This document shows positions 1 to 5,613 of a DNA stretch of 47,920 nucleotides, in pieces. The number at the start of each line of letters is the position of its first letter. Position 1 is the stretch's first letter. This stretch comes from Bacteroidota bacterium (lineage in GTDB: Bacteria; Bacteroidota; Bacteroidia; Chitinophagales; Chitinophagaceae), in contig JABDAZ010000023.1 in the NCBI GenBank assembly GCA_013288945.1, positions 1 through 47,920 of the forward strand, written 5' to 3'. The notes under the pieces were generated by a model. It was not told the origin of the DNA. It saw nothing but the letters and a program-made list of their open reading frames with translations, and made no database searches. Position numbers and translations under genes: made by a program.

Positions 1-678
1 CTCCTCTCTCTATTTATAAATTTATTTTTTGTAGCTTTTTTTATTGGCAAAAGAATTTATTATGCGGAAAAGCCTGCAACTTTTGCTTTTGTTCAATCCA
101 ATTCTCAATTTGTTGAGCAAACCAATTATTATACAATTTATAAATCGACTGCAAACATTGTAATGCTGGGTAATTCGTTAACCTACCGAATGCATTGGGA
201 TGAATTATTGCAACGTAAAGATGTAATAAATCGCGGTGTGGGTGCCGATGTTACTGACGGTTTTAGCCAGAGGCTGAATTTTGTTTTTAATTGCAATCCG
301 AAAATTTGTTTTATTGAAGGAGGCATTAATGATATTGCATTCGGCATTCCGAATAATACAATAATGACTAATTTTCAGCATATTGTTGGTGAAATAAGAG
401 CGAAAGGAATTATTCCCGTATTAACAGCCGTATCATATGTTACTGATTTTTCAAACAATCAAAAACAGATTAATGATAGCGTAACGGCGTTAAATGCAAG
501 GTTGATTGATTTTGCCAGAATTCAAAATATTGAACTTATAAATCTCAATCCGATGATTTCGAAAAACAACCTTATGAAGCCTGAATATGCTGAGGTTGAT
601 GGGCTGCATTATAAAAGTTCCGTTTATCTAATTTGGGCTGATGAAATAAGAAAAGTATTATCTAAACACGGTATTTAA
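1..678 (+). CDS. SGNH/GDSL-type hydrolase, 5' end outside window
   Basis: The reading frame is open from the first base, so the gene begins before the window; 225 residues are visible and the internal Met at 163 is not the true start. The visible part opens with a hydrophobic stretch (LFINLFFVAFFIG) that looks like a membrane anchor or signal sequence, so the enzyme is probably secreted or envelope-bound. SGNH hallmarks are present: block I as MLGNSLT (GNSL in place of GDSL, nucleophile Ser), block III as GGINDIA (oxyanion Asn), and block V as DGLHY (catalytic Asp and His). The family hydrolyses ester bonds in lipids or acetylated sugars; the substrate cannot be told. No plus-strand gene follows for over 1 kb. 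Confidence 0.85.
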   Translation, partial: LLSLFINLFFVAFFIGKRIYYAEKPATFAFVQSNSQFVEQTNYYTIYKSTANIVMLGNSLTYRMHWDELLQRKDVINRGVGADVTDGFSQRLNFVFNCNPKICFIEGGINDIAFGIPNNTIMTNFQHIVGEIRAKGIIPVLTAVSYVTDFSNNQKQINDSVTALNARLIDFARIQNIELINLNPMISKNNLMKPEYAEVDGLHYKSSVYLIWADEIRKVLSKHGI

Positions 679-711
679 TAACGTTAATTATTTTTATAAA
701 TTTCTCTAAAT

Positions 712-781
712 AAAAAAACCCCGGAATGGACATTCCAGGGACGTGATTATTATTATTGTAAACTGCTACCACGCAGTTTAC
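712..781 (-). ncRNA. Putative small-RNA unit A (two hairpins)
   Basis: On the minus strand a perfect 8-bp stem (GTAAACTG/CAGTTTAC, 758-765 with 774-781) is followed by an AT-rich linker and a terminator-like hairpin at 719-740 (CCC-GGAAT against ATTCCGGGG) ending in a run of seven T. It is one of five similar units in this gene-free kilobase. Seen: the hairpins and T-run. Inferred: that it is a transcribed small RNA end rather than a lone terminator. The upstream extent and the start of transcription are unknown. Confidence 0.45.
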
Positions 782-886
782 GTTCGATGTACGCATTTAC
801 CTTTATTATAGTTTTTTAAAAGTCTGATTTTTTGATTGAAAATATTTTGCAAGAATCATAAATAAGAAAATAAACCGTCTATTAAT

Positions 887-947
887 AAAAAAACCCCGGA
901 ATAGAAATTCCGGGATTATTATTTCAGAAACCCGCGCTTATAACGGG
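887..947 (-). ncRNA. Putative small-RNA unit B (two hairpins)
   Basis: Minus strand: a short CCCG/CGGG stem (931-934 with 944-947), then GGTTT and an ATAATAAT-type linker, then the hairpin at 894-914 (CCCGGAAT/ATTCCGGGG) with a T-run of seven. Same order and nearly the same terminator sequence as unit A, 175 bp away. No conserved peptide frame joins the units, which argues for RNA. Confidence 0.45.
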
Positions 948-1080
948 CTACATTGCATATATTAAAAATTGCATGCCAATAATTAATCCTCATTATTAAT
1001 AATTTACGCCTGGCATTTTGAGGTATAAAAAATTTGTATTAATTTTTACGTGTTAATCATACAGTAAGTTTTGTTATAGA

Positions 1081-1103
1081 GCAGCCTGCGAAGGCTGCTT
1101 TTT
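1081..1103 (+). terminator. Plus-strand rho-independent terminator-like hairpin
   Basis: Perfect 6-bp stem GCAGCC/GGCTGC with a six-base loop, followed by TTTTT. It points the opposite way to the neighbouring minus-strand units, so some plus-strand transcript may end here, although no plus-strand gene precedes it since 678. Confidence 0.5.
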
Positions 1104-1112
1104 AATTTAAAA

Positions 1113-1175
1113 CCCCGAAATAGACATTCCGGGGTTTATCGTTTATTAGGACGTAAACCACTCCACGTAGTCTAC
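1113..1175 (-). ncRNA. Putative small-RNA unit C (two hairpins)
   Basis: Minus strand: an imperfect stem (GTAGAC against GTTTAC, 1153-1175), a linker, then a hairpin at 1113-1134 (CCCCGGAAT/ATTTCGGGG) followed by TTTT. The terminator loop sequence matches unit A, and T-tracts lie on both sides so it could work in either direction. Confidence 0.4.
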
Positions 1176-1239
1176 AATAATATTTACGGATTTGGTTTAT
1201 TAATAGTTTATAAAAACTTGTGAAGATGTTACAAAAATT

Positions 1240-1290
1240 CCCCGGAATAGAAATTCCAGGGCATGGTTTTTCAACAGCTTTTGCAAGCTG
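1240..1290 (-). ncRNA. Putative small-RNA unit D (two hairpins)
   Basis: Minus strand: a 6-bp stem with a 4-base loop (CAGCTT/AAGCTG, 1275-1290), a linker, then the hairpin at 1240-1261 (CCC-GGAAT/ATTCCGGGG) and an AATTTTT tail. Just upstream lies TTGCACGTTTATAATA, resembling TTGCGTATATAATA upstream of unit E, a possible shared promoter or conserved 5' element. Confidence 0.45.
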
Positions 1291-1370
1291 CTGGTATTAT
1301 AAACGTGCAAAAACTTGCATGAGTTAATTAAAAGCAATTATTTTTTTTATACAAACCTTCTTAGAAAAAC

Positions 1371-1435
1371 AAAAACCCCGTAGCCAAGCCCGGGGTTTTA
1401 ATATTACTATATGAAACGAAACCTGCGCCAACAGG
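1371..1435 (-). ncRNA. Putative small-RNA unit E (two hairpins)
   Basis: Minus strand: a CCTG/CAGG stem (1422-1435), GGTTTCG, an AT-rich linker, then CCCCG/CGGGG at 1376-1395 with a T-run. The second hairpin differs in its loop from units A-D but has the same place in the unit. A 24-codon plus-strand ORF (1411-1485) overlaps it but has no support as a gene. Confidence 0.4.
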
Positions 1436-1578
1436 CATCACTATTATATACGCAAGAAATAAGTGTTGAGTTATACGACGGCTAGTTTTTAATTTTTTGT
1501 TATTAATGCATTTGAAAATAATATTATATCAAATAACCCGTTAGAGAATTTATAAACCTACTTTAGATAATTTGTTAC

Positions 1579-1606
1579 GGCGGCTATTTCCATAGCTGCC
1601 TTTTTT
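1579..1606 (+). terminator. Plus-strand rho-independent terminator-like hairpin
   Basis: An 8-bp stem (GGCGGCTA/TAGCTGCC, one G-U pair) with a six-base loop and TTTTTT. No plus-strand gene is visible upstream, so either it ends an unrecognised small transcript or it is a leftover. Confidence 0.5.
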
Positions 1607-1649
1607 AGTTATAAAATCTCGAAGATCAATAGCGTGTATAAATAAAAAA

Positions 1650-1668
1650 CCGGATAAATTTTATCCGG
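1650..1668. terminator. Bidirectional terminator after the TPR gene
   Basis: Inverted repeat CCGGATAA/TTATCCGG flanked by an A-run on the left and a T-run on the right. It lies about 30 bp beyond the minus-strand stop at 1700 and probably ends the gyrA-TPR transcript. Confidence 0.7.
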
Positions 1669-1699
1669 TTTTTTAATAAGTATTATGCTCGAATTTTTA

Positions 1700-2989
1700 T
1701 TAATGATCTTTGTCTACATTATTAAATTTCAATGTGTAAGCATCTACTTTTTCTTTCACATTTTTTTGTTCGTAGATAGTTATTAATAAATCATAGGCAT
1801 CTTTCAATGTAGTCTTTGCATCCATTTTTAATTTGTTTCCTGGTGCGCCTAAAATTTTATCTACTTTTTCAAAATAAGGAATTGCTTCGTCAAATTTTTT
1901 GGCTGCAGCAACGCGAATGTCTGCACGTTTTTTTATGTCCTCAGGTTTTTGACCTTTAATATCTTTTGTTGTGGCTTTTAAATCCACTGCCTGGTTGTAC
2001 GTAATTTGTCCAAGCAATAAAGAAGCCTGCGCATAATCAGGATTTAATTCAAGAGATTTGTTTAATTTTTCTTTTGCTTTTGTTACAAGCTCGTCCGCAT
2101 TTGCCGGGCGTTTGCCAGAAGTTGTATCAATTGCATAATTATATAACTCCACACCATAGTTGTACCAAAACAAATTATTATTAGGAATCTCTTTGGTAAT
2201 TTCTTCATATTTCGCAAACAGCGAATCCTTGTTTCCTTTTTTACGAACCATTTCCAGTTCCGTATCCGGCCATAAAAGATCGTCAGGATAAACAGCTTTT
2301 CCAAGCGACAAATATTTTACCGCGTTTGCGTCATCTTTTTTCTGGTTATAATAATAATCAACCAACCACCTGTAAATATCGCTGATATCGGAACCGCCGA
2401 TTTTGCTCAATTTTTTTTCTGCCAATCTTCCGTAATACATAGCCGCTGTATCTTTTACATTTGCTTTTTCATAAGCAACGCCGGCGTATAAAATAGAAGT
2501 TGTATCAAAATTCATTGTCGTGTCCCTGCCCCATTTATTTTTGAAAATGATATCACTGTATTTTACAGAATATTTAAAATAATAAGCTGCGGAATCCCAC
2601 ACTTTTGCATTGTACGTACGAACGCCCTGGCTAAAAGAAGTTGCATACATATCGCCTGCAAACGTTTGAAGGCCATCATCTTTTAATGTTTTAAAAGATG
2701 GATCCATTTGCGCATATTTTTCAAATGAACTGTTTGCAATTGCTTCTGAACCCGGATATTTTGCACGCAGCTTTTCATCTGCATAAATACCTGAATAAAC
2801 TTTTGCTTTCAAAATCCAGCCTTCAGGTTTTGCCTGTGCTTTCGGATCGTTCATTAATTTATCTATTTCGGTTTTTGCAGTTTCCAGTTGTCCTGGTAAA
2901 AGAACAGCGGTTTTAACTTTTGCAAAATCCTGTGCCTGAGAAAACTGAAACATGGCAGCTAACATCGCTAATAAAAAAAGCTTCTTCAT
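1700..2989 (-). CDS. Secreted tetratricopeptide-repeat protein
   Basis: 429 residues. The N-terminus (MKKLFLLAMLAAMFQFSQA) is a typical signal peptide with cleavage before Gln20, so the protein is exported to the periplasm or outer membrane. The rest is alpha-helical with TPR-like periodicity, for example NNLFWYNYGVELYNYAID and KLNKSLELNPDYAQASLLLG, plus many Lys/Ala-rich helices. TPR proteins act as protein-interaction scaffolds; no catalytic motif is seen. It starts 14 bp after the gyrA stop on the same strand, so it is likely co-transcribed with gyrA. The gyrase link may be only positional. Precise role unknown. Confidence 0.85.
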   Translation of the reverse strand: MKKLFLLAMLAAMFQFSQAQDFAKVKTAVLLPGQLETAKTEIDKLMNDPKAQAKPEGWILKAKVYSGIYADEKLRAKYPGSEAIANSSFEKYAQMDPSFKTLKDDGLQTFAGDMYATSFSQGVRTYNAKVWDSAAYYFKYSVKYSDIIFKNKWGRDTTMNFDTTSILYAGVAYEKANVKDTAAMYYGRLAEKKLSKIGGSDISDIYRWLVDYYYNQKKDDANAVKYLSLGKAVYPDDLLWPDTELEMVRKKGNKDSLFAKYEEITKEIPNNNLFWYNYGVELYNYAIDTTSGKRPANADELVTKAKEKLNKSLELNPDYAQASLLLGQITYNQAVDLKATTKDIKGQKPEDIKKRADIRVAAAKKFDEAIPYFEKVDKILGAPGNKLKMDAKTTLKDAYDLLITIYEQKNVKEKVDAYTLKFNNVDKDH

Positions 2990-3003
2990 ACTTGAATATT
3001 TAA

Positions 3004-5613
3004 TTATTGATTTTCTGTGTTTGATTCTGTTGGTTTGTCTTCATCTGTTTCAGGATTTTCGGGATTAATAATTTCTTCAGGTAAAGGCGTTATTGGCTCT
3101 GCAACAATATCTGTAGCAACAACAACTTCATCATCTAATTTATCCAATTTAGTAATTGCTGCAATTTCATCACCATCATCTAAACGAATTAATTTTACAC
3201 CCTGTGTTGCCCTGCCCTGCGCGCTGATACTTACAACCGGCATACGAATCGTAACGCCGCTTTTACAGGTGATCATCAAATCTTCATTTTCAGTTACGTC
3301 AAGAATGCCGACCAATTTACCTGTTTTTTCTGTAACGCTGATTGTCTTTACACCTTTGCCGCCGCGGTTTGTGATGCGGTATTCATCCATATGTGTGCGT
3401 TTGCCATAACCTTTTTCACTCACCACCAATATCGTTCTTGTTTTGTCCTCTTTATTTACACACACCATGCCAATCACTTCGTCGGTTGCATCATCAACCT
3501 CAATTCCGCCAACACCAATTGCGCCGCGGCCTGTGGAACGCACTTTATGTTCTTCAAAACGAATTGCCCTTCCACTTTTTACTGCAAGCATAATTTCACA
3601 AACGCCGTCGGTTAATTTTGCTTCCAGCAACTGATCACTTTCAACAATTGTTATTGCATTAACACCATTTAGTCGCGGGCGACTGAAATCTTCCAAGGAA
3701 GTTTTCTTAATCGTCCCTTGTTTTGTACAAAGAACGATGTAATGGCTTTTTACAAATTCTTCGTCTTTAATATCTTTTACATCAATAATTGCACGCACTT
3801 TATCATCCGGCGGAATTTGAATTAAATTCTGAATCGCCCTGCCCTTTCCGGTTTTATCACCTTCCGGAATTTCATACACATTCAACCAAAAACATCTTCC
3901 TTTTTCTGTAAAAAATAACATCGTATGATGCGTTGATGCAACAAACAAATGTTCTATATAATCTTCATCACGTGTCTTCCCTCCCATTGCACCACGTCCG
4001 CCGCGGCGCTGTTGGCGGTATTCTCCTGCAGGAGTTCTTTTTATATAACCAAGATGAGAGATGGTAATAACAACATCTTCTTCTTTAATTAAATCTTTTA
4101 ATAAAACTTCATCATCCAGAAAAGTTATTTCGGTTTTGCGTGCATCGCCGAATTTATCTTTTACTTCATTTAATTCTTTTCTGATAACTTCAAAACGTTT
4201 TCCTTCGTCAGACAATAAATCTTTTAAGAAAGCGATCAGCGCTAATAAATCATCAAGCTCTTCTTTAATTTTATTTCTTTCCATTCCGGTTAAGCGTTGC
4301 AAACGCAGTTCCAGTATGGCTTTCGCCTGAATCTCATCTAAACCCCAACCTGCATTAATCAAACTTTCTTTCGCAACATCCGGCGTTGCAGAAGCGCGTA
4401 TTAATGAAATCACTTCATCCAGATGATCAAGCGCGATCATATAACCTTGCAAAATGTGCGCTTTCTTTTCTGCTTCTTTTAATTCATATTTTGTACGGCG
4501 TATAACAACCTCATGTCGAAACTCTACAAACTCGCTAATCATCTCGCGGATGTTCAATGTGCGCGGCCTACCTTTAACCAATGCAACATTATTAATACCG
4601 TATGATGTTTGTAGTTCTGTATGTTTATATAAAAGATTAATGATGAGGTTTGCTACACCATCACGTTTCAAATCAATAACAATTCTTGTCCCTTCTTTTT
4701 GGTTAGATTCATTATTAACATGTGCGATGCCATCAATTACTTTTTCATTTACCAATTGCCCAATACGATCACACAAAGCATCACGATTAACCTGGTATGG
4801 AACTTCTGTAATGATGATTTGTTCGCGGCCGCTTGGCTTTGCATCAATATGTAATTTTCCACGAAGCACCACTCTTCCTCTTCCTGTATACATGGCGGTT
4901 TTCACGCCTTCCATTCCATAAATAATTCCACCTGTCGGAAAATCCGGTGCCTTAATATGCTCCATTAATCCTTCAACAGTTATTTCGCGATCATCAATGT
5001 ATGCAATACATCCATTAATAACTTCTGTAAGATTATGCGGTAAAATATTTGTGGCCATACCAACAGCAATACCGCTGGAACCATTTATTAATAATTGCGG
5101 GATGCGGCTTGGCAACACGGTTGGTTCTTCCAGCTCATCATCAAAGTTTGGTTGAAAATCTACTGTATCTTTTTCAATATCTTCCAGCATATTTTCAGCA
5201 AGCTTGTTCAACCTTGCTTCTGTATAACGCATCGCTGCAGGCCCGTCACCATCCTGGCTCCCGTAGTTTCCCTGGCCATCAACCATTGTATAACGCATGC
5301 TCCATTCCTGCGCCATGCGCACCATTGTATCATAAATCGCCTTATCACCATGCGGATGATATTTACCCATCACATCACCAACAATACGGGCAGATTTTTT
5401 ATAAGGTTTATTACTGTTGTTGCCCAATTCATGCATTCCAAAAAGTACGCGGCGGTGAACCGGTTTTAATCCATCACGAACATCTGGCAATGCGCGGCCA
5501 ACAATTACTGACATAGAATAATCTATGTAAGCAGTTTTCATCTGCTCTTCAATATTGATGGGAATAATGCGGTTATTGTCTTGCGTTTCCGGTGGTATTG
5601 TATTCTCGTCCAT
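3004..5613 (-). CDS. gyrA: DNA gyrase subunit A
   Basis: 869 residues, full length. With GyrB it introduces negative supercoils using ATP. The breakage-reunion domain is recognised by [20 protein letters not shown], the QRDR stretch GKYHPHGD and the catalytic Tyr130 in [10 protein letters not shown]. The C-terminal beta-pinwheel carries the gyrase box QRRGGRG at about residues 535-541, which separates GyrA from ParC. The position equivalent to E. coli Ser83 is Lys91 ([10 protein letters not shown]), which is unusual. The C-terminal tail is acidic and Pro-rich ([20 protein letters not shown]). A TAnnTTTG element lies about 65 bp upstream. The TPR gene follows directly. Confidence 0.97.

Follow-up and report, generated by a model that had tools for sequence, protein, structure and literature searches.

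Five tandem units on the minus strand of a gene-free kilobase are read here, tentatively and with slightly less than even confidence, as a lineage-specific family of candidate small non-coding RNA genes. They lie near the left end of the window, the whole stretch of 47,920 nucleotides (nt) that was analysed, which is contig C23 (JABDAZ010000023.1) of the Bacteroidota assembly GCA_013288945.1 (3.03 Mb, 116 contigs, 72.9% complete). Each unit consists of an upstream hairpin (hairpin 1), an AT-rich linker and an intrinsic terminator followed by T residues. Unit A (712-781) runs from hairpin 1 (781-758) through the linker (757-741) and the terminator stem (740-719) into a T-run (718-712); unit B (887-951) has these parts at 951-927, 926-916, 915-894 and 893-887, and unit C (1109-1175) at 1175-1153, 1152-1135, 1134-1113 and 1112-1109. 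In unit D (1233-1293) a hairpin 1 of sequence unlike the others (1293-1272) is followed by the linker (1271-1262), the terminator stem (1261-1240) and an AATTTTT tail (1239-1233), while unit E (1371-1439) comprises hairpin 1 (1439-1418), the linker (1417-1396), a different terminator stem (1395-1376) and a T-run (1375-1371). The two-hairpin units reported in the initial annotation at 127-219 bp spacing are therefore present, with spacings of 175, 219, 127 and 136, and the predicted fold places a hairpin 5' of the linker in all five (whole-unit z-scores, terminators included, of -4.7, -3.9, -4.1, -5.5 and -2.3 for A-E). The cores are more alike between units than most spacers. The array has the tandem, similar non-coding units of multicopy small RNA genes, with D alike in layout only. 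Its gene-free character was borne out as well, since 679-1699 contains no open reading frame of at least 60 amino acids (the longest has 45). No shared frame was seen among those of at least 20 amino acids, as had been claimed, and coding peptides were rejected on this ground.

The terminator stems are the best-conserved part of the units (mean z 9.1 in between-unit alignment). Those of A-D are close copies, reading CCCNGGAAT, a four-base loop and ATTYCGGGG, whereas unit E has CCCCGGGCTTGGCTACGGGG, so that the "near-invariant" terminator of the initial annotation holds for four of the five units. Terminator-like sites on both strands of 600-3100 number nine, as against a mean of 1.8 in shuffled sequence (standard deviation, sd, 1.4), and in a 448-kb sample of the same genome the array region is the only one with three same-strand terminators clustered inside 1.5 kb. 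Similarly, the stem pattern GGAATNTCNATTCCGGG has four sites at zero or one mismatch in the assembly, all of them in the array. Words loosely similar to it are not rare, as up to three mismatches yield 84 matches compared with 10 for the reversed pattern, and terminator stems of the CCCCGG type frequently stand at the ends of genes in relatives. Repetition beyond chance supports a multicopy local family over stray terminators, as had been proposed; the small-RNA interpretation is supported in part. The linker words put forward as a hallmark of the units did not stand, since alignment between linkers does not exceed chance (mean z 0.5) and TAATAA also precedes 23 of 93 ordinary terminators of the genome; AATAATAAT is found upstream of units A and B and of one of the 93. 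Spacers mostly show no alignment above chance, the exceptions being A-C (z 3.8 and 4.0), B-C (2.7), A-E (3.4) and D-E (4.2) upstream, and C-E (2.5) downstream.

The arms of hairpin 1 covary, and the hairpin is stronger than the sequence preceding most terminators of this genome. Scored over the 50 nt that precede the terminator, the hairpins of A-E reach 22, 17, 20, 21 and 20, compared with a mean of 12.3 (sd 3.1) for 93 controls, among them the remaining terminators of the gap and bidirectional ones entered once for each strand. By this score the units rank 2, 3, 4, 6 and 11 of 98 (controls plus units); eight controls reach at least 17, the score of the lowest unit, including one whose folding energy is -11.5. 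The folding energies of the same 50 nt are -13.5, -8.7, -12.1, -13.2 and -9.3 kcal/mol for A-E (controls: mean -3.3, sd 2.6). Of the nine stem positions, 9, 8, 9, 9 and 8 are paired in A-E, and when the 3' arms are exchanged among the units only the true pairing reaches this total of 43 of 45 (one of 120 permutations, or one of 24 without D). Four of 18 stem bases differ between A and C with every pair kept, an outcome seen in 0.7% of trials with random substitutions, and four of 18 also differ between B and E. Furthermore, RNAalifold recovers hairpin 1 from the five-unit alignment, with double changes kept at five of 18 pairs over both hairpins. The loops differ, being GTGGTA in A, TATAAGC in B, GTGGA in C, GCAA in D and TGGC in E, of which only those of A and C are similar. 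The statement that the first hairpin keeps its place while changing sequence is supported as far as the arms are concerned, but the sequences fall into two similar pairs (A/C and B/E) and a fifth one in D. The latter is not alignable, with differences from the other units at 13-15 of 18 stem bases, and its homology is not established.

The pairing also carries information on the strand. The departures from Watson-Crick pairing in the minus-strand RNA are G-U (seven in hairpin 1, four in the four like terminators) or T-T (two), with no A-C, and all five units have their T-runs on the minus strand. Folded alone, the hairpin-1 segments of A-E have energies of -13.6, -12.4, -14.2, -16.7 and -12.6 on the minus strand and of -14.8, -7.4, -8.3, -14.8 and -7.6 on the plus strand (plus-strand z -3.0, 0.1, 0.0, -1.4 and -1.8). 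The minus strand is therefore favoured clearly for B and C, somewhat for D, and for E by energy but not by z.

Under the preferred reading as small RNA genes, transcription of each unit would yield an RNA of roughly 60-75 nt, in which a short, AU-rich, single-stranded linker joins the 5' hairpin to an intrinsic terminator at the 3' end. The units would have originated through duplication in place (A and C, B and E), with terminators in common, and selection would have kept the fold as the hairpin sequences drifted. The RNAs would most likely act in trans, base-pairing via the loop or the linker, perhaps with an RRM-type RNA-binding protein as partner. Such a partner is proposed because Hfq (PF17209) was matched in none of 33 genomes of the genus, including 18 that are near-complete (a control was found in five of 14), and because the genome has four RRM_1 matches. 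A-R-N is an Hfq-binding motif; binding of Hfq through AAUAAU repeats was considered and set aside, since Hfq was not found. The analogy with FopS in Bacteroides makes an RRM protein the natural candidate (PMC11697453). Should the units prove to be transcribed, a little-studied Bacteroidota lineage in which Hfq was not detected would have a small-RNA family that is arranged in tandem and diversifying, and the divergence of sibling RNAs could be followed at one compact locus; otherwise the units would be a local curiosity of intergenic DNA. The finding is ordinary in kind and of moderate interest.

Several results weigh against the small-RNA reading. Concerning covariation, chance leaves every pair intact through the A-to-C changes in 13% of trials when only transitions are allowed, shared ancestry cuts the number of independent events, and the permutation and G-U counts lean to success because the arms were picked as the best hairpin with G-U allowed and A-C not. 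The covariation term of RNAalifold is unfavourable (+1.48), to which the shifted positions of D and E in that alignment contribute. Concerning the strand, the hairpin-1 segments alone have modest minus-strand z-scores (-1.6, -0.5, -2.5, -2.7 and -1.2 for A-E); A folds better on the plus strand by both z and energy, and E by z. Concerning transcription, the minus strand of 680-1700 holds no match to the consensus promoter at eight of ten positions (shuffles: 3.4, sd 2.1), and units A, B, C and E are without a recognisable Bacteroidota promoter; with a trained profile they score 3.5, 3.0, 5.0 and 3.6, none above the 19th percentile of the regions that precede genes. Concerning distribution, no second array appeared in model searches of 32 further genomes of the genus (33 with the source genome) and of samples of 396 genomes of the order and 395 of the phylum.

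The promoter scans covered only the TTTG/TAnnTTTG-type consensus and the trained profile. TAnnTTTG is enriched upstream of genes (64 occurrences in 264 regions; the reversed motif has 26 and the other strand 33), as is TTTG-19-TAnnTTTG (6, as against 0 reversed and 2 on the other strand). The profile is rough, its -7 box having drifted away from a clean TA, and separates upstream regions (median 7.6) only weakly from downstream regions (6.7). The sole good match among the five units is a promoter-like site upstream of unit D (1308-1339, minus strand), whose score of 11.8 corresponds to the 95th percentile of gene upstream regions. The likeness noted upstream of D and E is real, as the D-E spacer value above shows, but TATAAT, which it includes, is not enriched upstream of genes (31 occurrences, 44 reversed). 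The units may use other promoter types, depend on read-through or not be separately transcribed at all.

Since promoters are not recognisable, a pile-up of terminators remains a strong and serious rival, albeit an unlikely one. According to this explanation the units are repeated stop signals, each a strong terminator with an accessory hairpin, which separate read-through of gyrA and a TPR-like gene from a convergent hydrolase gene. Indeed, the units share the strand of the former two and are convergent with the latter, four of the five lack a recognisable promoter, the terminator stems are what is best conserved, plus-strand terminators are also present in the gap (1081-1098 and 1579-1600), and similar stems end ordinary genes in relatives. 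However, the TPR-like gene already has a strong terminator of its own, a bidirectional one at 1643-1675 that forms the upstream border of the array and is not a unit, and hairpin 1 covaries although a stop signal does not need it. Moreover, no array follows the TPR-like gene at any of the 24 loci of the genus (of 29) that have the full 1.5 kb downstream, the best model score there being 28.1 bits for a single terminator.

The covariance model, R1, was built from an alignment (A6) of A, B, C and E with D dropped and part of the 5' arm of E shifted; alignments A1-A5 and A7, in which B, D or E is shifted or omitted, were left out. Unit D scored 27.1 bits although it was absent from the alignment, and searches over 40 genomes used stricter filters, so that weak matches can be lost. 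A DNA search matched two of 58 genomes, namely the source genome and G012, the latter by one terminator. The model gave matches in 31 of 33 genomes of the genus, source included, at an expect value (E) of up to 1 (13 places inspected), in five of the 396 order genomes besides the source at E up to 5e-4, and in three of the 395 phylum genomes besides the source at E up to 1e-4 (all five and all three inspected). All 21 inspected outside places are single, not tandem, and most look like gene-end terminators, matching chiefly in the terminator half. This comes near the outcome named in the initial annotation as contrary to a small-RNA family, conservation of terminators without hairpin 1, with no orthologous array available for a direct comparison. 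The match in G117 (39.1 bits) fits both hairpins with standard pairs only, but its E of 1.2e-4 per genome, or about 0.05 over the 396, is at the level expected by chance over the sample. Upstream stems are also present in G026 (a 29.7-bit match on contig C19, following a thioredoxin-like gene), in G235, where the model fits with broken pairs, and in G722, where the stem is A/T-rich. In the G026 locus (L119, 678-770, minus strand) a hairpin ending GCAGGTTTC, as in unit E, precedes the terminator behind the thioredoxin-like gene, which is matched in 30 of the 33 genomes of the genus and not in the source genome at E 1e-30.

The second serious rival, which is rather improbable, is the local duplication of a palindromic repeat without an RNA role, akin to repetitive extragenic palindromic (REP) elements or miniature inverted-repeat transposable elements (MITEs). 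Its tandem copies would stem from slippage or conversion and be kept or decay neutrally. The restriction of the array to one place in one species, within the genomes searched, is in keeping with such an origin, as are the palindrome, which is shared best by A-D, and the perfectly palindromic hairpin 1 of A, which can fold on either strand. However, the repeat differs from REP or MITE families in having no copy elsewhere in its own genome, the T-runs stand on one side only, and the occurrence of G-U but not A-C departures together with the one-strand folding of B and C points to RNA. The candidate small-RNA reading has a bolder form, which must be called doubtful, in which the array would be a newborn, species-specific nursery of five sibling RNAs without detectable Hfq, transcribed from an unrecognised promoter type, with hairpin 1 diversifying under fold-keeping selection to read different targets. 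Most doubtful of all is that the units are relics of 3' ends, the terminators having outlasted tandem duplicates, now decayed, of a small gene that was lost or of the end of a gene, since, although hairpin-then-terminator 3' ends exist (for example behind the thioredoxin-like gene of G026) and words such as TAATAA also precede ordinary terminators, the units retain no residual shared reading frame and decay is not expected to give compensated stems.

Judged by Rfam, to which the initial annotation had also pointed, the array belongs to no known family: there is no match at gathering score, and among the 65 matches at E up to 10 on 650-1700 all those read are far below the family cut-off. No tRNA genes were found, and a phage or plasmid origin was rejected as well (no match; one pattern searched in viral contigs gave none). 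Integron attC sites and CRISPR-like arrays were considered by motif alone and not taken up. At most, the array may be assigned by its layout to the tandem small-RNA kind. The LhrC copies of Listeria lie close together. LhrC1-5 of Listeria monocytogenes resemble the array in layout, and act via UCCC motifs in loops and need LisRK (PMC4132741); by contrast, UCCC is absent from the loops of both hairpin 1 and the terminators, and the Rfam model (RF00616) gives 19.5 bits against a gathering score of 110, for a plus-strand match. NsiR1 of Nostoc sp. PCC 7120, a small RNA of about 60 nt with 12 tandem copies, some of them divergent, resembles the array in tandem layout and small size, but its copies each have a DIF1-type promoter (PMC9045159), whereas four of the five array units have no recognisable one; its model (RF02399) gives 21.2 bits for B and 19.5 for A against a cut-off of 39. 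FopS/GibS of Bacteroides thetaiotaomicron, to which the RNA-binding protein RbpB binds, is, like the array, a multicopy family of a Bacteroidota species; FopS has a single-stranded 5' R1 seed, one terminator hairpin and canonical promoters (PMC11697453). The array, with its 5' hairpins and tandem arrangement, is set apart by predicted fold. There is no FopS entry among the Rfam matches listed, the Rfam copy not having been checked for a FopS model.

The array is bordered on the left by a gene for a GDSL-type hydrolase (1-678, plus strand), convergent with the gyrA side. On the right follow, on the minus strand, the gene of a 429-amino-acid protein (1700-2989) without Pfam match, for which "TPR-like" is our own reading, and the adjoining gyrA (DNA gyrase, 3004-5613). 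The 448-kb sample has a G+C content of 35%. Downstream of the TPR-like gene of G026 (L012, 2805-4305) there is likewise a long stretch with only small open reading frames and a few terminator-like hairpins, and in another relative (L122, G029:C531) two identical terminators CCCGGGATTTCTATCCCGGG stand about 2 kb apart, at 791-810 and 2851-2870. The plus strand of 680-1700 has five consensus promoter matches at eight of ten positions (3.4 in shuffles). A nine-of-ten match (TTTG-19-TAATTTTT) in 1017-1103 is followed by the plus-strand terminator at 1081-1098, inside the array, and a short plus-strand RNA from this region is possible. The stem type of the other plus-strand terminator (1579-1600), GGCGGCTAT-loop-ATAGCTGCC, recurs at three more places in the genome (C96:33-63, C1:4286-4313 and C4:5778-5804), four in all. 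Finally, the 10-bp palindrome TTATTAATAA has 1,084 copies in the source genome as against 94 for the reversed letters, and 0-63 copies in each of 57 relatives (47 below their own control, two equal, eight above). In a sample consisting of the window and L040-L059 its core is like YATTAATR and its density is 1.17 per kb between genes and 0.25 per kb within genes. The palindrome brings to mind the highly iterated palindromes (HIP1) of cyanobacteria.
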